Shown: one piece after another, positions 20,383-56,800 of the stretch | How the letters are laid out: each line of letters starts with the position of its first letter | Numbering within the stretch: position 1 is the first letter of the stretch | Origin: Bolinopsis microptera | Lineage: Eukaryota; Ctenophora; Tentaculata; Lobata; Bolinopsidae | Length of the DNA stretch: 64,000 nucleotides | Assembly: GCF_026151205.1 (NCBI RefSeq) | Contig: NC_087077.1 | Span: forward strand, 2,728,001 to 2,792,000 | Reading direction: 5' to 3' | Notes under the pieces: model-generated | Database searches by the model: none | Seen by the model: the letters and a program-made list of their open reading frames with translations, nothing else | What the model was told of the DNA's origin: nothing | Made by a program: the position numbers and the translations under genes

Positions 20383-22644
20383 TTAAATATTACCAAAAAT
20401 ATCACCAGTTAATAATTTGGTTATCAATCTTAAAGATGGGCTTCGGTCCGTGTATTTGATTAGCATCGACTCAATCTTGGGAAATCGTTTGAAGTTTCTG
20501 ACAAGTTTTGAAACTGTTTCAGAGTTTCCTACCTCGGTCGACAATTCAACAACATCGAGGACATATTCGATCGGATCCCAAGTTATGTCAAGCTCACTTT
20601 TTTTTTGTTCATATCCCGTAGCTCCTCAGCTTTAAAAATTGTTTCAATCATCATTGATAATATTCCGTTATCTATCATTCTTTCCACTCCTTCTTTGCCT
20701 TTGAGCCGGAAAACATGCATGGTGATAAAAATTTGGTTCAAGCAAGATTCAAAGCTGCTGAGGGTAAGTGGGTGTTGTTTCAATCTATTCACCATATCTT
20801 CGAATATTCCAGATTCATCATTTCCATCTTTTGCAACTGCAAGGCCAAGAATGTCCAGAATCTGGTATTGTCGTTGTGGGTACAATCTTGCAGCACGGAT
20901 GATTAAGCCAATTGAATCTTTGGTCAATATCTTCATCATTATTCTATACGGTATGTTAACAATAAAGAATTGTAGAAAACCTATACAATTGCTCATTACA
21001 GTTAAATCATCGGTTAATGATAATTGGTTTTGGCTGGTAATTCTGTTTAATAACTGGAGAGCACTTGGAAAGAACCGTATCATATCCACAAGTTTCACTT
21101 CATCTCGAAACCAGTTTATTGCTGTGATGCATGTATCCTGTAATTGCTGAAAGACCTTAATATTGTTTGACAGAACTTCAGCATGAGATATAATATCAAC
21201 GATACCCTCTTTCACAAGGAAACGATTAGCTTTTTGTATGTCAGATTCATCCATGCAAAACAATATCATTGACTTCGCCATACATATTATGAGAGTCACG
21301 ATATCTGGCAAGAATATTGCATTTGTCTCGATTCGTTTAACATAAGTAAGGGCACTTGATACAATTAATAAAAGTTCTTCAGAGTTATCGTAGTTTAGTG
21401 TAAATGGTGATAAAATCAAGATGTCTAGCACTTGTTGGAAAATATCTTCTTCGTTCAGGAAACAAGCCAGAAGGACTATTGACAACTCCACCTTTCCATT
21501 CATCAGTAAGTGATTAGTCTCCCCTGAAGGTGAAGAGCTTTCAAAAACGTCTTTTACCATCTGAAGCAGTGGTACAATCAATTGTTTGTCATTCCAATAT
21601 TTAACAGCTGTGCAGACCATTCTGGGAAAGGTAGGGTCACGGTTAAGTATACGGACCTTTACTGATAGTTGAAATTCGACATATGACGTCATCTAGCGTC
21701 ATCTAGCGTCATCTAGCGTCATCTAGCGTGAAATATCGCCAGATGATGATAGATGACGCTAGATGACGCTATCATCATCTGGCGATATTTCACGCTAGAT
21801 GACGCTAGATGACGCTAGATGACGTCATATGTCGAATTTCAACTATCAGTAAAGGTCCAAGTATACTGCTCAGGACGTTTGACCGTTCAGCCCCGAAGTA
21901 CCCCTCTACATATTCCATGATTTGGCCCCGGGAGAAATCAAACATGGGAAGGTCCCAAACATTACTATACGGATTCTCTCGAGCTTCTTTGATTTTTGAT
22001 GCAAATTCATCCGGATCACAGCTTAGGCTGTTTCCTTTTATAGGCTCAACTAAAACTGGCCGAAACTCTTTGCTGCTTGTGCTTTCCAGTGGGTCTCTTT
22101 CCTGTCCTTTCAAGCTTGTCTGGGGCTTAATTTCTGGGCGTGTTTTATTTGACTTACCAGCTTTTTGTTTACCTTCCGCCTTTTTGACGCCCTGATCTGA
22201 TATAAAATCGAGAATTGGCGCCACTTTAAATTCTTTTGCAAAAGAAGTTATAACATTTTGTAGTTCATCATCTTTACTTAGTATCCTCCCGAGATCTGAA
22301 ATGAACAGAAATTGTTTGATTTTAAGTTCACGATGCAAGTTACCACCTGAACATTAAAAATAGGAAGTACTTATTTGATGTAACCAATTTATCTGCAGTG
22401 TCCCGCAAAAACATACTTTTGTTTCACAATATTTACAAACAAGGCAATTAATGGTAATAAATCATAATGTGTACACCCAATGCTTACCAGTACCTCTTGC
22501 TGTTTCTGATATCGAACTCATATTAAACTTTTCAAACTGATCAATCAATTCCAGAACTCTGCGTCTGTTCTTCCGCCGTCTGTTGTTTTCTTTTGTTTTG
22601 ATACTATTTACTATCAGGTCTACTGTCACACTTATTTCTTCCAT
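20383..22644 (-). pseudogene. Unrecognised gene family member A, interrupted by a MITE and a frameshift
   Basis: Exon 1 is 22488-22644 (MEEISVTVDLIVNS, basic stretch KENNRRRKNRRR, donor GTAAGC). Exon 2 begins at 22346 (acceptor TTCAG; phase fits) and runs to about 20383. Exon 2 encodes a Lys/Ser-rich linker, then a segment with NPYSNVWDLPMFDFSRGQI and a long helical leucine-rich part that looks armadillo-like; I do not recognise the family. Two lesions occur. A 206-bp MITE with its 8-bp target duplication lies after SSIL (21653-21858). Further on, nine A residues near 20600 close the frame, whereas ten would extend it by about 70 sensible codons to a stop at 20383. The MITE lesion is proven by paralog B; the A-run could be a sequencing error. 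It may be a recent pseudogene or a partly functional allele. Confidence 0.7.
21653..21858. mobile_element. Palindromic MITE, 206 bp, inside gene A exon 2
   Basis: The element is flanked by the 8-bp duplication AAGTATAC (21645-21652 and 21859-21866). The two arms are almost perfect inverted repeats starting GGACCTTTACTGATAGTTG. Inside are several tandem copies of GATGACGCTA / TAGCGTCATC in opposite orientations, around a centre that also pairs (GATGATAG...CTATCATC). There is no ORF. The paralogous gene at 26130-26143 has the single empty site. The 8-bp duplication would suit hAT or a related superfamily. Confidence 0.92.
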
Positions 22645-44285: not shown

Positions 44286-47200
44286 TCACTGCCCACCGGA
44301 CCCACTGCTACCAGGATAAGAGTAAGCGTAGGCGAAAGCAGCACCAGCCATTGTCGATGTGACGGCGTACTTCGCAAATCCATTGCTGGTTGGGGCATCT
44401 GTAAGGAGTACGCGTTATATATTGAGGGTGTGATTTTAGTATTAATAAGACATGCTTTTTGAGTTTGAAGCACTTCTCATAGTTACTTTGTCAACATTGC
44501 TTCACAAACTCTAAGTATGCAAAATAACCTTACTACACGAACAAACCATGCAGATCAAAATACACAAAATACTCATGCAGTCTAACAACTAAATATTAAA
44601 GCAGGAAAGTAAGACAAAGTTCGTTTCAACTCGACCTCTCTCACGTACAATTACATACTAGGCTTGTAATACGCCAGCGAGTAGATCAGGTTCTGCTTCC
44701 ACTCCGCGTCGTACGGGGGATATCTGAGGTTGTTGACGGACTCCATGCCTATTGGCTTGTGTAGGACGGATTTGTGGTGACTGAACTGGTCAAATGTGGA
44801 CTTGCCGTGATACTTTCCTGGGGTTATAGTGATTGAGATACCGTTACACCAGAGTGGTACACCAGAGTGGTACACCAGAGTGGTACACCAGAGTGGTACA
44901 CCAGAGTGGTACACCAGAGTGGTACACCAGAGCGGTACACCAGAGCGGTACACCAGAGTGGTACACCGGAGTGGTACACCAGAGTGGTACACCAGAGTGG
45001 TACACCGGGGTGGTACACCAGAGTGGTACACCAGAGTGGTACAGCAGAGTGGTACACCAGAGTGGTACACCAGAGTGGTACACCAGAGTGGTACACCAGA
45101 GTGGTACACCAGAGTGGTACACCAGAGTGGTACACCAGAGTGGTACACCAGAGTGGTACACCAGAGTGGTACACCAGAGTGGTACACCAGAGTGGTACAC
45201 CAGAGTGGTACACCAGAGTGGTACACCAGAGTGGTACACCAGAGTGGTACACCAGAGTGGTACACCAGAGTGGTACACCAGAGTGGTACACCAGAGTGGT
45301 ACACCAGAGTGGTACACCAGAGTGGTACACCAGAGTGGTACACCAGAGTGGTACACCAGAGTGGTACACCAGAGTGGTACACCAGAGTGGTACACCAGAG
45401 TGGTACACCAGAGTGGTACACCAGAGTGGTACACCAGAGTGGTACACCAGAGTGGTACACCAGAGTGGTACACCAGAGTGGTACACCAGAGTGGTACACC
45501 AGAGTGGTACACCAGAGTGGTACACCAGAGTGGTACACCAGAGTGGTACACCAGAGTGGTACACCAGAGTGGTACACCAGAGTGGTACAGCAGAGTGGTA
45601 CACCAGAGTGGTACACCAGAGTGGTACAGCAGAGTGGTACACCAGAGTGGTACACCAGAGTGGTACACCAGAGTGGTTAATAGAAATATCAACTAATGTC
45701 CATATTGCAGGTGAACACTAAACAGTTAGATTACAGATATCTTCAGTTAGATGCATAGGATATATTATTAAGTAAAGTAGCTTATATTATTAAGTAAAGT
45801 AGCTTATATTATTAAAGTAGCTTATATTATTAAGTAAAGTAGCTTATATTATTAAGTAAATAATAAGAACAGGAAATTACCGATGCCACTGTGACCAACA
45901 CCTCCGAACGGTAAGGTCGGTATCATCATGTGCATCAGACAGTCATTAACATCCAGCGTACCTGCTGACACCTTCTTCTTTACCTGAACATTTAAACGGG
46001 TTAATGCCAGTCTCTGGCTCCATAACATGAAGACCTTGTTTTAATTTGTATTGAAAAGCTCTAATATGTCACTTTGTAGCTGATTAAGAGTCACGCAATA
46101 CGGATAACGGATGTGGAACTAAAACTTTAGTCCTAGATATAGAATCGTTCATATCTCACTCAGTTTTTAAAAAATCCTCGATTTTACAATTTCAGCACCG
46201 ATCCTAACACAAAAACACAAAAACATGAATATCTCATACCTCATCGACAAGCTTAGCGTTGCTAGAAAACAGGTAACACACAAGGGGCTTCTCTCGGGTC
46301 CTGAAGAACTTAAAAACGCTCTGAATGTCCTCGTATTCCATGATGGGCAGGATGGGCCCGAATATCTCGTCCTGCATGACTTTAGAGTCCAGAGGAGTGT
46401 TGGTGAGGATAGTCGGGGAAATGTAGTTAGTTTCATCGTTAGTTTTACCTCCTGATAAGTTATATGGTTGCTCAATATTAAGCAATATTGATAAGAGATA
46501 TCTGGTAACTAGGTGATGTTATCAGAAATTTATATGAAGATATTTTTGGTCACTGTCACCAACATGTTAACCAACATTGGCTAAAACATGGTGCCATTTA
46601 GGTTTTGTTACTTGGTAATACACAATGAAGTTTCAGTTCTTATCAAAGATCAGTCAGTATAATTATATCTATCACTGAAACTGAAACACAATTACCCACC
46701 AATAACGACAGTTCCATCATTCATAAGAGACTTTAACCTGTTGTAGTGACCTTGGTTGATTATCCTGAAATTAGGTATTATTATTTAAGTCAGTCACGTA
46801 CTTTTAACTTTAAACGTCCCTCAAAAATGTGGAATCCCTCAAAATATACGAACAAACGTTAACGGTAAAGCTCAATTAATTAAAATTTTGCCCTTCAATT
46901 TAACTCCAATTGGGCGGCCAGTGGGGACTCTGAAAACAGTGTGTGTTGACCTGTTGGAGAGTTTACTCTCCTGAAAATAATAACACCCCAATAATGACAC
47001 GTGACTCTACCACGTGACCCTACGTTACCACGTGACCCTAAGTTACCACGTGACTATACCACGTGACCCTAAGTTACCACGTGCTCCTACCTTGCGAACC
47101 CGTCGCTCTGTTCCGGATCCTCTCCGTACATGTCAGTAATGTGCTGTTTCATCCTCTCAATCAGAGTTGGCATCTGCTTCTTGTGACAATATATGTAGTC

Positions 47201-49866
47201 CGGAGCTATGCAAGTCTGCCCAGCGTTCACACACTGTTCAAAGTACAAAATTGTCAATCAAACGGCGTTTCTTAAAACTCTTATTTTTAAAATATAAGAA
47301 AAGCGGTCTAAGGAATTAATTCCAGAATTGAATGACAAAATACCAAACGAATATTACCAAACCTTGCCCCAAATGATTCGTTTGGCGGCCGTGTCAATGT
47401 TAGTATTCTCATCCACAATAACAGGGCACTTTCCCCCCAGTTCCAGGGTGACGGGGGTCAGGTTTACTGCGGCAGCTTTAGCTACTATCTTACCCACTGA
47501 TACGCTCCCTGGAGAGGAGTTACTTGAGGGGTGTATTCGAAGGGGTGTATTTTATTAAAGGGGTATATCGGCCCCCCCCCCCCCCCCCGTATATCTGATT
47601 ACGCATGAATATTGTCACTGATTGAGGTATTTTAAAGATTGAGAACGGTTCATTTGAAAGACAATTTGAGACAATATGACCCCCCGTGAATGAGGAAGAA
47701 TTAAAGATAAATTACCTGTAAAGAAGATGTGATCCCACCTAAGTTTTAATAAAGCCGTAGCAGTATCAACCCCTCCCTCCAAAGTTCTGAAAATACAGTT
47801 TTAATTAATTGAAGCTAATTAGTAATTAGGCTTACTAAGGTTATTCATTGAAAATCTTGGATAAGTGGACTAATCTTCAATCTGGTGTTAACTACATACC
47901 CTACATAGTATCTTCCTAGTGATCTAAGTCTAAATAAGTGTGGATTATCCAGTATACCTGTAACACAGAGGATCCAGAAATAGGTCGAAGTATTTCTTCA
48001 TGACAGCACTAGCAGTGGGTGCTACCTCGCTCAGCTTCACCACAGCACAGCACCCAGCACATATTGCTCCTGGAGGGGCTACTGTCAGCATTTTATGAGC
48101 GTCAGGGATTTTTGATTCTTGTGAAACACAAGGAAATGTTCTTAAAAGGGAATAGAACTTTTGCCAGAATATTCTGATGATTTTGGGGCCGTGATTCGAA
48201 CTGCTCTCGGGGTATAAATCAATTTTTAAGAACTTGTGGAGATTTTAATCTTGTACGATTATTTACCAAAAGCCTAAGTGATGACAAGAGAGGAATGTTA
48301 CAAGTTTCCAACACATGATTCAAAATAAAATATTTGAATTACAGTACGCCCAAAAAAGGAGGATTAAGATAACCGATAATTGAATCAAGGCGATCTTTCA
48401 TGTTCGTCAAATCCCCATTATAACATTTACCGCCGATCATCACGAATATCAAAAGCCACTTGGAAGTTGATTTTCTGTACTTCCATAATCCATACACCAT
48501 ACACGTATCATTCCAACCGTTTTAATTCCAACTTGGTTGTTCCCCGGGCCGATCGTTAATACATGAAACAAATTTAACATAATCGCATTTTACGGCTCAC
48601 CGACGAGTGGACTCAGGGCAAGTTGAACAGGGTAATTCCAGGCCCCGAATATAACGATAACCCCCTTGGGTTCCGGACACAGATAAGCCTGGTCTATCTT
48701 GTTCAGAAGGTCCTACAGTTGGGGGTATTGGGTATTATACAATGTAATAGTTGGTTAGTACCTTGGTAAACCCAGCTGATAGTCTTGCTTTTTAGTTACA
48801 GAAATAAACCTCTACCGCTCGAACAACACCAACGAAAGTTTCGAAACCTCTTACCAGTGTGCTAATCAGTAAATGAATCTGTCTGCTGGGTTTACCATGG
48901 TAAAAATACAGAAATGTAATCAATTATCCTAATTACCTATGAGAGGCACCAGCGTACATTGCATAGGATAATTCCAGGTTCCTATAACTAGGATCATCCC
49001 CTTTGGCTCTGGGTGTTGGTACGCGTAATCTAACTTGTTCACTAAATCCTATGGATCAGCGAGTCAACATTCGATTCAAATCATTAAATACCTGTTAGAT
49101 AATTATATTACCAAACACAAAAATCAAAACTTGATCACGAAAATCACACGATAAGGCTCCCCTCGGCTCCCTAAAATATTACCCACAGACACAGTACTTA
49201 GTGGGTCACTAATAGAAGTTGTGACTACTGTGACAGCAGGTACAACTACTATCAGTGACCCGCTATCACAACACAGAAATACTCACGGTCTTAACATACT
49301 GATCTGCCATCCAACCCTTGAGGTGCTTCATAGCGTACCCCAGTTCACTCTCAGTAAACTTTAGATCCGTACCGTTGGTTTCCATCGGGTGCTTCCTCAT
49401 GTCTTTATGTACTGCTTCTAAATACTCCTGAGAAGATACGTGTTGGTGATGGTGGGGAGGTGGTTTGTTTTGGCACGTGACAGTGATTCTGAAGTTGGTG
49501 TGAACTGAAGGAGGACGAGCTAATCACTGGCACGTTTCAGCGATAATGTCAGCGAAAATCTATCAAAAGATAATGGTCACAATCCCAAATTTCAATTCTT
49601 TTTCCAATTAACAATTTAAGACTATTAAGAGTTCTAATAAACATAGTGGGCGAAGCGAAATCATATTGGTGTTGCATATAAATCAAGTTTAATAAGATGT
49701 TAATTAAACAGCTAGATTAATTGAATTGAACCTTTTCCATAGCTTTAATCATAGCAGCACACTTTTTAAGCTGTCCGATCCTATACTCGTAAGGCAAGGT
49801 GACCCCTGAGTCGAATGAAGTCTGAAGCTCATCCTGGATTTTCTGATATTCTTCTTCTAGAGACAT
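44286..49866 (-). CDS. ALDH3: ALDH3-type aldehyde dehydrogenase, 12 exons plus one alternative, 506 aa
   Basis: Exons: 49866-49732, 49427-49287, 49048-48937 or 48712-48601, 48078-47958, 47786-47716, 47508-47363, 47233-47091, 46764-46700, 46451-46240, 45983-45881, 44817-44659, 44398-44286. All phases join and introns are GT-AG. The enzyme oxidises aldehydes to acids with NAD(P)+. Visible motifs: EPKGxxxxxGxWNYP (alternative exons, Asn of the oxyanion hole), [13 protein letters not shown] (general base Glu), [16 protein letters not shown] (catalytic Cys), [26 protein letters not shown] and [17 protein letters not shown]. The length is typical of ALDH3, including the C-terminal extension. The last exon adds [20 protein letters not shown], moderately hydrophobic, in the place where some ALDH3 proteins have a membrane anchor. 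If the last donor (GTATGT) is not used, translation would stop after YYKPSM. A 13-bp minisatellite fills the penultimate-exon intron. Confidence 0.93.
44847..45678. repeat. Minisatellite, 64 x 13 bp, in ALDH3 intron
   Basis: The unit is CACCAGAGTGGTA on the plus strand; 832 bp is exactly 64 units. Variants (AGAGCGG, CCGGAG, CCGGGG, CAGCAG) lie only in the first about 16 and last about 7 units; the middle is uniform. It begins 29 bp from the acceptor of the exon at 44817. Because 13 is not a multiple of 3, all frames stay open and give artefactual proteins on both strands. Confidence 0.95.
45768..45860. repeat. Short tandem repeat TTATATTATTAAGTAAAGTAGC
   Basis: About four copies of a 20-22-bp unit, one shortened, in the same ALDH3 intron as the 13-bp array, ending 20 bp from the donor of exon 45983-45881. 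Confidence 0.7.
47563..47588. repeat. Poly-C tract in ALDH3 intron
   Basis: A run of about 19 C (GGCCCCC...CCCGTA) in the intron between exons 47786-47716 and 47508-47363. A likely place for sequencing or assembly length error. Confidence 0.8.
48601..48712 (-). other. ALDH3 alternative exon 3b (112 bp)
   Basis: Acceptor CTGTAG, donor GTGAGC. Encodes [17 protein letters not shown], then [17 protein letters not shown]. Same length and phase as exon 3a, 224 bp away. Joins in frame to the exons on both sides. Confidence 0.88.
48760..48901. promoter_or_regulatory. Intronic inverted repeat between alternative exons
   Basis: ACCTTGGTAAACCCAGC (48760-48776) pairs with GCTGGGTTTACCATGGT (48885-48901) with one mismatch in 17; the loop is about 108 nt. 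It lies in the intron between exons 3a and 3b. A role in splice choice is inference. Confidence 0.5.
48937..49048 (-). other. ALDH3 alternative exon 3a (112 bp)
   Basis: Acceptor CCATAG, donor GTAATT. Encodes [17 protein letters not shown], then [17 protein letters not shown]. Homologous to exon 3b at most positions; both carry the WNYP motif. Using both, or neither, shifts the frame (112 is 1 mod 3). Confidence 0.88.
49201..49263. promoter_or_regulatory. Intronic hairpin upstream of exon 3a
   Basis: Arms 49201-49222 and 49242-49263 pair at 19 of 22 positions (GTGGGTCACTAATAG with CTATCAGTGACCCGC), loop about 19 nt. It lies between exon 2 and exon 3a of the ALDH3 gene, near the exon 2 donor. 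Confidence 0.55.
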
Positions 49867-50877: not shown

Positions 50878-53800
50878 CTACTTCACGGGTCTCCTTTTAA
50901 AGTGCGACTTTAACACATCGTCCATTCCTTGACTAAATTTTGCTGAAATACAACAATAATGCAGAGCAAGTTATAGTATCGTCCATTTTACCAGGGGATA
51001 AAACGTGTAACTGTTCATTAATGCGACTCATAACGTGGGAACATAGTTGAAATATTTGGCCAGTTGGTAGATCACCGACCGGCTATAAGCCGGCTTATAG
51101 CCGGCTAAAATTTTTATAGCCGGCTATAAGCCGGCTTATAGCCGGTTAGTAGCCGCTTACATTTGTTGTTGAGCGACGGCTATTAGCCGGTTATAAGCCT
51201 GCTATTAGCCGTTTTGGTATTAAAAGTGGTTATAAGCCGGCTATAAGCCGGTTATAAGATATTAACTCAACTACATCGTACTGAACGATAGTCAGGAGCC
51301 GGCTATGATCTACCAATTTCCCAAATATCTGATACTAGAATGGATATTGTAACAAAACTACAAGGTATCTAAATAATCTAACCTATATTGTATTGTAACA
51401 AAACTACAAGGTATCTAAGTAATCTAACCTATATTGTATTGTAACAAAACTACAAGGTATCTAAGTAATCTATCCTATATTGTATTGTAACAAAACTACA
51501 AGGTATCTAAAGAATCTAACCTATATTGTATTGTAACAAAACTACAAGGTATCTAAATAATCTAACCTATATTGTATTGCAACAAAACTACAAGGTATCT
51601 AAATAATCTAACCTATATTGTATTGTAACAAAACTACAAGGTATCTAAAGAATCTAACCTATATTGTATTGTAACAAAACTACAAGGTATCTAAAGAATC
51701 TAACCTATATTGTATTGTAACAAAACTACAAGGTATCTAAGTAATCTAACCTATATTGTATTGTAACAAAACTACAAGGTATCTAAATAATCTAACCTAT
51801 ATTGTATTGCAACAAAACTACAAGGTATCTAAATAATCTAACCTATATTGTATTGTAACAAAACTACAAGGTATGTAAAGAATCTAACCTATATTGTATT
51901 GTAACAAAACTACAAGGTATCTAAAGAATCTAACCTATATTGTATTGCAACAAAACTACAAGGTATCTAAAGAATCTAACCTATATTGTATTGTAACAAA
52001 ACTACAAGGTATCTAAATAATCTAACCTATATTGTATTGTAACAAAACTACAAGGTATCTAAATAATCTAACCTATATTGTATTGTAACAAAACTACAAG
52101 GTATCTAAATAATCTAACCTATATTGTATTGTAACAAAACTACAAGGTATCTAAATAATCTAACCTATATTGTATTGTAACAAAACTACAAGGTATGTAA
52201 AGAATCTAACCTATATTGTATTGTAACAAAACTACAAGGTATCTAAAGAATCTAACCTATATTGTATTGTAACAAAACTACAAGGTATCTAAATAATCTA
52301 ACTTATATTGTATTGTAACAAAACTACAAGGTATCTAAAGAATCTAACCTATATTGTATTGTAACAAAACTACAAGATATCTAAATAATCTAACCTATAT
52401 TGTATTCGATGAGTCCCAACTCTGTTAGACAGGATTCTTGGAGCAAGCACACCAGTGTCAGGTTATTGCAAATATACTTCGTTAGTATCACCTGATAAAT
52501 ATCATCTTATATTTAAACAGAATTAAAATTAATCGTAGGGAAACAAACCGGTTGATCGAGTATGGCATGTTTCCAATTTCCATACGATCACCCACGATTA
52601 TATCCATGTATGTACCTGGTTCCACTACAGTAATTAAATGAGTAATTCAATCCTTGCTCAGGCACCCCGCACAACTAACAGTAAGGTTACTTGCAACCAG
52701 AACGGTACTTACAGTGCCGTTGTCGAGATGGACCGAAGAGAAAGACTTGCTGTCGTAAAATGAGAAAGACTCGGGCGTGGTGTAGATGTTTGAAACGTCT
52801 GCCACCAAGTCCAACATATCACAACACATCTCGTACTTCTGCAGGATGAAAATATAACGTTATATTATTATTATTTAAAGTACATTGGTTCTTAAATTTT
52901 TATGAGATCCCAGTTTATATATTTAAAAAAAAACCTTCTGCTCTGAGGAGGAGAGAAAGTTTTTGTGGAGAGCCGCTCAGACATGGGCACCGTATTGTGT
53001 AAATTATTTAGGTATATTTTATGCAATATCTTTGTCGCATACGAGCGGGGTAGTAAATATTGTGTTTCGTTTCGTTTCGTTTCGTTTTCGTTATTAATAA
53101 TGTTATGTTTTTTTGATAATGATAGGTGGGGACGAAGTGAGAGTCTCCACTCAGTGTAGTAGACTCTCACTTCCCCAACTATCATTTTCAATTGTGATCG
53201 ACCCACTCATTAGAGCGGAAAAGATTACTAAAATGTTCTGTTTTGTCTGGAAGCGTCCTTTTGTGACAGGTTTTTGGGGAATTTGAAGAAAAATGTAATT
53301 ATAATTTTGTACAAAGCAAAACGAAACGTATGAATCCAAATCTAAAATGCAATTATACAGATTTGATTAGGAGATTGGTGGTTCTACGGAAAACGCAAAA
53401 TGAATTCATTAAACAGACATACATCGGAATTCGGTATGTTACTATCTGACCATTAAATAACAGTAAGTTATAACTTACATTAGTTGGAACTGACTCAGTA
53501 TCGGTAGCTATGTAACACTTAGTAGCAACGTCAAACAGTAACACTCTGTCCATCCCACAAGGCTCCTTGAGCGCGTTAAGCAGCGATTCAAACGTCGATA
53601 ATAACTGGAATAACGACTAGTAATGATGTTATGAGTAAGAAAAAGATTACCGCTCAAGGATAGATTAGACTTGGGCGTTGTTTTTAACTATCCCCTGTTT
53701 AGAATTTGTATTTAATAAGTTTTATAGCCGAGGGAAAAGTTGTCATGGGCCAAGGCTCCAAGCATTTGGTGGGTTAAGGCGGGTCAAAAGCAATTTTATC

Positions 53801-56800
53801 ATCTTTTCAAGATGAAATTGCATTTCATTGCATCTAATCTAAATTTACAGCAACTAAACTTAGCAGTAATCAAACTTCACGGAGATTATTTCATTGTATC
53901 GGATAAAAAAACACTATAAAATCACAAACTTCGTTCTTTGAAGTCTGAACATGCTTTCGAAAATTTGTGGACTTCATGACAGATAATACCGTAACATAAA
54001 TGTGACGTGTAATAATCATCAATGTAACATAACCTATACTGACTAAATTAATTATAAGCTGACCTCAGGTATGAGCTTTTGTCCCACAATACTGAGAGCC
54101 TCAAATATGCTGTAATCGTAGACTGACGTCAACTGAGTTTTAAGATTGATGGATATCCCCGCTTCTGACAATTCGTCGTTAACTCTGAAGTTTATGTCCT
54201 TTAGAGCTTCCGCTCGCTGATCATCTGAGAGACCATCCACTTTGTGGATAAACACAAACACCTGCAAATAAATTGCCTTATGGGACAAAATTTTCGACAA
54301 ATCGAGTTGAATAACTTGCGGATAGTGAGGCCATCAAATCAGCGAACACATATGTCGCGCTGCTGAAGAAGAAAAATAAACATCTCAAGTCAATCAGATA
54401 CGTGTGATCTGCATTATTACTCGTGAACACACATTTGGGGTGATGACGAGCTTAGCTCAGGGGAGATTTGGTGGTCAGTTAAACAGATTACATCCCTTCT
54501 GATAGATATGGGACATGGGTTGCTTAGCTCAGGAACTTTTATCATAAAGGATGGCTCTCGTATTGTATGAGGGGGTTTGGAATAACTTGTGTAATTTTAG
54601 TTATTAGTCAATAGTCATATGGTTATTATTACGTACAATATAATATATGATATTACAAAAATAAACTATAATATATAGTTTATATATTATATATATTATA
54701 GTTTATTTTTGTAATATCATATATTATATTGTACGTAATAATAACCATATGACTATAAATTGAGCACAGACTAGCGGCAACTAATATTAATGGATAAGCC
54801 ACACATCCTAAATTCCAGGTCCATATTTATACTGCCACATTCCCACTATCACTATTTTCCTATCAGCACAAAGCGTAATTGATTTTAACTATCACAACAC
54901 TACATATTCAAACTTATGGCATATCAATATCTACGATATCCTAACTCAGTCCCAAACAAACTAAGCGCGAGTCTTAAAAGTTGCTGGAAGCACAGTGGGC
55001 TTTATCTTTTGTTTAAATCAATAAATCGCCCTTTTCATTTTTTTATTTATCAATTGCATGCAATTATTCTGTTTAAGATTTTATCTATATATGTTATATA
55101 TTTAAAATTATGTAATAAAGTTATTATATTCGTAAACGTTGACTGGCTAATAAACCAGTCCCCAAACAACAACAAAAAGAATTATCGAGGATAATATGCG
55201 ATGAAATAGTGAATATATGCATTCTTCAGAGTGAGCTGCAATATAGTATTCGTCCAAACTTTATTTTTAGATTTTGCACAGTTACTTAATTTGTAATTTT
55301 ACTCCCTCCCAGCCGAATGTCAATTCCACAAGTTGCAGGAGGGTCTGTTGCTTTATGGCAGAGCTTAGACGTAGCATCCTGGGTAGTGGGTGTCTTCCAT
55401 GAACAGTTTATGGTGTATTAAAAATGACTTAAGTACAAATTTATGTACACCTCTTCGTTTGTCATCCACGAGCTGAGTCTTAAGTACAAATTTGTATTTA
55501 AGTTGCATGATTTAAGTTCACACTTAAATAAGTGTGACTTTGGGAGTCGAACTTAACGTGCACTTGGGTGCAACTGTCGTTTTGAGAACCTGACATGGCG
55601 AATCAGATCACGTCACAGGCGCAACTATCGGTAGGCCTTTCGAATACACTTGTCCTCAAAAACAGGAGCATTACGTTGAATCAGGTGATTGGGTTGGCAC
55701 TAGATCCCCACTATGGGAATCGTGCAGAAAGCCCAATTACGGTATCCAAGCACCATGTCACATGATTAACGATTAGGTAATCATTGATTACCCAATCAAT
55801 TTTGCTAACGAGATAAACAAATTGCTTGATAACTTCGGAATTTTCAATCCGTTTCGCAGTTGAGTGTTTCGTCTAAAATTTAGGGTGGCACCAAGAAAAG
55901 TATTGGTGTATGTCCCCTTAATGTCAAGTCAATTGTAACAATTATATTAATTACAAAGCAAATCTTGCATTCCACGCACGTTTTGTGCCTGGTCTCAAGA
56001 GACAAGAATGCATGTACCAGGTGGCTCACAGTCATCAAAAGTTTCACTTATAATCGTATTAACTGGCCATTATTGTATTTTGAATGAGATTATCTCATCC
56101 AAATCTCAGTAAAAATAGAGATTCTCGTTCTTTTGACAATTAAATAAGAAACTCACTCCGCGTCTGCTCTAACATTAATGAGTCCCAACTAATAATACAA
56201 TTATAATAAATGCATAAATAGTAATAAAAAAACTTTAGATAGCGAAGGAAGAAGGAGGCCTGACCTTTTTAAATGAACAATATTAGGTGGGCGGCAAAAA
56301 ATAGCGATGGGGCGGCATGTTTCGACGCTGGTACAGATCAGGATATTTTGGATGCAGACAAGAATCAAGAATGACGATCGCGATCGGTAAATCAACTTTA
56401 AACGAGATTTAACAGAATTTCTAAATGAGCCAAAGCCCCAAAATTGTTGATAGCACACCGATATGTCCGGACCGTTGGTCACTTCACAACACGACGGGGA
56501 AACCGGATATCCAGCATAATGCCGTTATTAGCGTAGTGTCGCGTCGCTCGGCCGGGTAATTTAAGCAAGTACGTGCGTGATGCGCGCTGCGCTTATAATT
56601 ATAATTGAAGCGCGGGAACATTAACATCCTTAACATCGCGTTCTCCAACAAAATATAAAGTAGACCCTTTCGAAGTATGTGCCGGAATTGACCTACGATC
56701 AAAACATTCACGTTAGCATGTGACTCTTTTCAATCTACACCACGGACCACCTAGAACTATAACATTATAACAGTACGGAGTTTTTTATAAAACGCTGTGC

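Follow-up and report, generated by a model that had tools for sequence, protein, structure and literature searches.

We describe here a class-3 aldehyde dehydrogenase (ALDH3) gene of the ctenophore Bolinopsis microptera in which the third coding exon is present in two tandem versions, and we consider it likely that these are used one at a time, by mutually exclusive splicing. The two versions, named 3a and 3b, lie in the minus strand of the window, i.e. the whole 64-kb stretch of DNA that was analysed, and encode alternative forms of the active-site segment carrying the WNYP motif. Mutually exclusive splicing is the best reading of the locus because it agrees with the gene model, with the outcome of each exon combination for the reading frame, with the constraint acting on the two copies, with their equal fit to the family profile and with the presence of a paralogue bearing a single copy of the segment.

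Gene model

The gene is complete on the minus strand between positions 49866 and 44651 and encodes a predicted product of 468 aa. It comprises 11 exon positions, or 12 exons when both forms of exon 3 are counted (Table 1). The acceptor is TAG at 3a and at 3b, and CAG at the remaining nine acceptors of the gene.

Table 1. Coordinates in the window of the ALDH3 exons and of the hairpins predicted in the introns next to exon 3a
Feature	Position	Strand	Basis
Exon 1 (start codon)	49732..49866	-	gene model and spliced translation
Exon 2	49287..49427	-	gene model; exon 2/3 junction common to the C3 paralogue
Exon 3a, 112 bp, 37 codons and the first base of a Gly codon	48937..49048	-	TAG acceptor, donor TAG/gtaatt
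Exon 3b, 112 bp, 37 codons and the first base of a Gly codon	48601..48712	-	TAG acceptor, donor TCG/gtgagc
Exon 4 (second-AG acceptor, most likely start)	47958..48069	-	PDB alignment, spliced model, C3 paralogue
Exon 5	47716..47786	-	gene model and spliced translation
Exon 6, LELGG segment	47363..47508	-	gene model and spliced translation
Exon 7, catalytic-Cys motif AGQTC	47091..47233	-	gene model, PDB alignment
Exon 8	46700..46764	-	gene model and spliced translation
Exon 9, EIFGP motif	46240..46451	-	gene model and spliced translation
Exon 10	45881..45983	-	gene model and spliced translation
Exon 11 with stop codon	44651..44817	-	gene model and spliced translation
Predicted hairpin, exon 2-3a intron	49199..49265; arms 49265-49242 and 49222-49199	-	0/1000 shuffles
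Predicted hairpin, 3a-3b intron	48759..48902; arms 48902-48885 and 48776-48759, 17/18 paired	-	0/1000 shuffles

Two AGs are candidate acceptors for exon 4. A start at the first one yields a product of 472 aa with a four-residue insertion relative to the relatives in the PDB, an insertion that is also missing from a second ALDH3 gene of the same genome, located on contig C3 (hereafter the C3 paralogue). Because of this insertion in the alignment, the start of exon 4 was moved to the second AG, which lies 12 nt farther downstream, at 48069, and is most likely the correct one; the sequence then runs continuously as PLI-GAI, matching both the relatives and the C3 paralogue. The full-length Pfam score, the PDB alignment and the search for copies in the genome were made with the first model of 472 aa.

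With this 472-aa model, Aldedh (PF00171) was the sole Pfam family found, nearly full length and with a score of 248.2 bits for either isoform. The closest solved structures among the best 60 of 245 PDB chain matches are those of human FALDH/ALDH3A2 (4qgk, E = 3.9e-119) and human ALDH3A1 (3sza, E = 1.7e-117). The alignment to these two proteins spans residues ~14-459; the WNYP, LELGG and GQTC motifs are kept, and the catalytic Cys, Glu and Asn motifs are all present in the product. Judged by its sequence, the gene is an intact class-3 aldehyde dehydrogenase gene, and its product a predicted enzyme.

A possible alternative last exon was noticed at positions 44400-44286 of the window (minus strand), spliced from inside exon 11 (last exon base 44655). 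It would add an in-frame tail of 38 residues, so that the gene may have two C-termini.

The two versions of exon 3

Exons 3a and 3b were found exactly at the positions given in a preliminary description of this DNA, which had presented them as homologous exons of equal length and common phase. Both indeed start in phase 0, end in phase 1 and are bordered by GT-AG. They share 71 of 112 bases and 22 of 37 residues, and neither contains an in-frame stop. As their length is 1 mod 3, the frame had been expected to be lost when both or neither are included, and this is what the spliced models give: joining 3a to 3b leads to a stop after residue 186 and skipping both to a stop after residue 102. The full-length enzyme of 468 aa is obtained with 3a alone or 3b alone, as had also been proposed. 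Such a frame break on joint inclusion or skipping is common in clusters of exclusive exons, without being required.

The pair combines several features expected of a mutually exclusive tandem exon cluster: the exons are adjacent and internal, equal in length and phase, homologous, open, bordered by GT-AG and frame-breaking. Nearly all the features that can be tested in the sequence support the prediction of mutually exclusive splicing made in the preliminary description.

When either copy was compared with the window by tblastn, the other copy was retrieved with an E value of 6e-14. No third copy of exon 3 is recognisable in the 64 kb by this search, because the next match had an E value of only 0.64.

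Age of the duplication and constraint on the copies

The identity between 3a and 3b is distributed unevenly over the codon, with 22/37, 33/37 and 15/37 identical bases at positions 1, 2 and 3, respectively. The difference between positions 1 and 2 taken together (55/74) and position 3 (15/37) is significant (Fisher p = 0.0008). By the NG86 method dN is 0.31 and dS is saturated. Since the amino acids are conserved and the synonymous sites saturated, the duplication is old and constrained, and these comparisons show that the pair has evolved under purifying, protein-level constraint. No duplicated flanks were detected in the 60 nt of intron on either side of the exons, which match at 18/60 and 22/60 positions for a 95% level of 22 in shuffled sequences, as expected of an old duplication.

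The alternative that survives best is that one copy is constitutive, the other being rarely used or recently dead, with its frame kept open by age or luck. The open frames alone are weak evidence against it, because 32-50% of simulated free copies of 37 codons remain without stops. The codon positions are more informative. Had one copy escaped constraint from the duplication onwards, on branches of equal length, an identity of 33/37 at position 2 would have a probability of 6.5e-5, and one of 55/74 at positions 1 and 2 a probability of 0.005. This test loses force quickly for a short free phase: for position 2, P rises to 0.010, 0.034 and 0.105 when 30%, 25% and 20% of the divergence is placed on the free branch, and for positions 1 and 2 to 0.056 at 40% and 0.37 at 30%. 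A recent release from constraint, corresponding to the 20% case for position 2, would therefore agree with the identity observed. Several features nevertheless speak against a dying exon, in addition to the identity at position 2. The splice-site pairs of 3a and 3b are both intact, and the two copies fit PF00171 equally well, with 42.3 bits for exons 3a and 4 and 42.6 bits for exons 3b and 4. Furthermore, each copy keeps 11 of the 12 columns that are identical in human ALDH3A1, human ALDH3A2 and the C3 paralogue, the departures being a Cys for Leu at position 31 in 3a and an Ala for Thr at position 32 in 3b. From their sequences neither copy looks decayed, and we regard a disused second exon as unlikely.

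Predicted effect on the active site

The preliminary description had also assigned the duplicated exon to the active site. This assignment stands by homology, the Asn and Tyr of WNYP being retained in both 3a and 3b. In the PDB alignment the motif of both isoforms faces Asn114 and Tyr115 of human ALDH3A1, and the isoforms differ from each other at the positions aligned with ALDH3A1 residues 117 (Met/Val), 119 (Cys/Leu), 120 (Thr/Ala) and 122 (Val/Ser). A docking study of ALDH3A1 reports bonds of the ligands to Cys243 and Asn114 and stacking on Tyr115, and it names Gln122 as a residue to which selectivity might be linked (PMC9007462). Since the residues exchanged by the choice of exon lie next to the catalytic Asn, the two isoforms probably differ in aldehyde preference. 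The altered substrate range suggested in the preliminary description can thus be fairly inferred from the alignment, as distinct from a result.

Predicted intron hairpins and proposed mechanism

Each of the two introns next to exon 3a contains a predicted hairpin (Table 1). For 10 of the 11 introns, the highest-scoring ungapped inverted repeat was compared with those of shuffled sequences, intron 10 being left out for its minisatellite; this comparison was post hoc, as it was done after the stem had been seen. The score was 15 in both the exon 2-3a and the 3a-3b introns, a value reached by none of 1000 shuffles in either case. For the other eight introns, shuffles reached the best score in 3/200 cases for intron 1 and in at least 20/200 for each of the remaining seven. 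Twelve inverted repeats with a score of 15 or more are present in the 64-kb window, including the two flanking 3a. When a stretch beginning at the end of exon 2 and reaching into exon 4 was folded, the mean pair probabilities were 0.90-0.91 for the 3a-3b stem and 0.88-0.90 for the exon 2-3a stem. As a whole, the exon 2-3a intron folds better than its shuffles (z = -4.58, 1/200 as good), whereas the 3a-3b intron does not stand out when folded in full (z = -1.44, 17/200 as good), its stem alone being unusual. The possibility that the arms belong to a repeat family was rejected, the exact 17-base pattern being found at only two places, which are these arms. A search for docking-selector pairing returned the two separate hairpins, plus weaker pairs between 48110-48123 and 49116-49129 and between 48110-48124 and 48440-48454, which may well be fortuitous.

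The predicted hairpin of the 3a-3b intron adjoins a branch-site-like sequence upstream of 3b, UACUAAC (48760-48754, with the A at 48755), the first two bases of which are overlapped by the 3' arm. The stem extends from 34 nt downstream of the 3a donor to 4 nt upstream of the A in UACUAAC.

We propose that an ancient tandem duplication produced the two copies of the third coding exon and that these are now spliced in singly. Transcripts containing both exons or neither would be cleared by the frame rule together with nonsense-mediated decay, as we infer from the spliced models. In addition, the hairpin may hinder the joining of 3a to 3b in the 224-nt intron by looping out 144 nt. Because of the position of the stem, the path from the 3a donor to the likely branch point of 3b would be shortened to ~38 nt, and the branch site would be partly paired. 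A distance of 38 nt may leave splicing unblocked in this animal, and if the 3b branch site is paired, the splicing of exon 2 to 3b would be affected too. The complete scheme, in which ALDH3 is an enzyme with two settings, the choice of exon swapping a wall of the substrate tunnel and the hairpin placing the 3a donor too near the 3b branch point, so that exclusion is steric and due to RNA folding instead of a short intron, is offered tentatively and seems to us rather doubtful.

The same frame outcomes could serve another purpose. Regulated double inclusion or skipping, both of which give an early stop, would send transcripts to nonsense-mediated decay and act as a switch of productivity, the isoforms being near-equivalent enzymes. 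Such a switch needs no divergence between the copies, yet 15 of 37 residues differ, some of them near the catalytic Asn, and a hairpin working as we suggest would counter double inclusion. We hold this explanation to be improbable and prefer the alternative use of 3a and 3b in functional enzymes.

Related sequences in the genome

The C3 paralogue has the exon 2/3 junction in common with the gene of the window, and its exons 3, 4 and 5 are fused into one. It follows that the intron downstream of exon 3 has been either gained in one of the genes or lost in the other. A single copy of the WNYP segment is present within the 8 kb examined around the paralogue. This segment matches 3b at 21/38 residues and 3a at 18/38; that of human ALDH3A2 has 19 matches to each copy, and that of human ALDH3A1 has 18 to 3a and 15 to 3b. 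For sequence comparisons of this kind the segment is too short to root the 3a/3b pair.

Among the best-scored candidates in the genome, there was no second copy of the ALDH3 gene of the window or of the two introns flanking its exon 3a, and in the DNA search neither the exon 2-3a intron nor the 3a-3b intron matched any place but its own. An assembly artefact or a chimera of two gene copies is thus scarcely credible, for even if the locus is known from a single assembly, these introns each have one genomic place, 3a and 3b are clearly diverged and not allelic, and the exons of the C3 paralogue are arranged differently.

Pieces of the C3 paralogue were also encountered in a young dispersed repeat, the four copies of which (L009 on C5, L010 on C12, L011 on C10 and L012 on C13) are 98.4-99.7% alike. 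A stretch of the last exon is present in all four, and a stretch of exon 2 with intron in three. The pieces sit side by side, and the exon 2 frame is interrupted by a stop in L009 and L010. From its sequence this repeat looks like a DNA-level capture of gene fragments by a mobile element.

Surroundings of the gene

Two minisatellites were found at the locus, one inside intron 10 (44845-45677; 64 copies of a 13-bp unit, 98% match) and one upstream of the gene (51345-52406; 23 copies of a 46-bp unit, 97% match). The upstream neighbour on the same strand, at ~53353-54333 (minus strand), is presumably a GTPase of the RagC/D type: its part 54052-54333 matches Gtr1/RagA (PF04670, E = 2.2e-17), and its part 53353-53616 scores 21.8 bits, just below the PF04670 cut-off of 22. 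Perfect inverted repeats of 67 bases resembling MITEs occur at 21653-21858 (72-base loop) and 54611-54756 (12-base loop). A family with the glutamate-receptor ligand-binding domain has 32 matches on many contigs of the genome, several of them in open frames of ~900 codons or more. One of the receptors of the genome (L014) has the iGluR ML032222a of the ctenophore Mnemiopsis as its closest solved structure, and another (L013) is closest to kainate receptors of vertebrates; a query of 117 residues of ML032222a gave one match at 80% identity and two more at 75-76%.

Comparison with known systems

Exclusion of tandem exons can be achieved by the geometry of the intron, as in the steric type known from tropomyosin, or by RNA pairing, as in the Dscam type. 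The hairpin of the 3a-3b intron would achieve the same exclusion by a different route, as it is a local structure, neither a short intron nor a docking-selector pair. If it acts in this way, the locus would be a small, testable case, of two exons and one hairpin, in which to study the enforcement of exclusion.

Among the best 60 of 245 PDB chain matches, human ALDH3A2 (FALDH, 4qgk) and ALDH3A1 (3sza) are the closest relatives of known structure, and they align with almost all of the product. To our knowledge, the human genes encoding them have no duplicated WNYP exon. Drosophila Aldh-III is likewise an ALDH3-type gene. It undergoes regulated splicing events which, in the sections available of PMC8041851, are placed in the 5'UTR, unlike the duplicated coding exon described here. 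It is also named as alternatively spliced in PMC5900714, where the portion available does not give the location of the event. The terms 'ALDH' and 'aldehyde' are absent from the main text of two surveys of such exclusive or tandem exons in human genes (PMC9741552, PMC5740500), and 'aldehyde' from that of PMC9013439 and PMC3228551. In the open-access papers searched we found no report of an exclusive or duplicated coding exon in ALDH3, which is weak evidence of novelty, and one clear case of exclusive exons in ctenophores, that of Mhc. In the part of PMC3912159 available, Mnemiopsis leidyi Mhc2 carries a predicted cluster of mutually exclusive exons in its motor domain. Like the gene studied here it is a ctenophore enzyme with a predicted tandem exon pair, but it is a myosin motor without any link to ALDH.

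If our reading is correct, the substrate of an aldehyde-detoxifying enzyme would be tuned by exon choice in a lineage argued, according to the title of PMC10232365, to be sister to the other animals. The two isoforms would then be naturally occurring variants of the active site in a protein that is otherwise unchanged, and of use for the question of what sets the substrate range in ALDH3. A close parallel is human CYP4F3: in this enzyme of metabolism too, two exons alternate, and the use of exon 3 or 4 (CYP4F3A and CYP4F3B) switches the substrate by tissue (PMC12380495). CYP4F3 is a P450 for which, in that source, the choice and the switch of substrate have been shown, whereas those of ALDH3 are predicted from sequence. 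The retuning of an enzyme by exclusive exons is thus of a known kind, and ALDH3 appears to be a new member of it.
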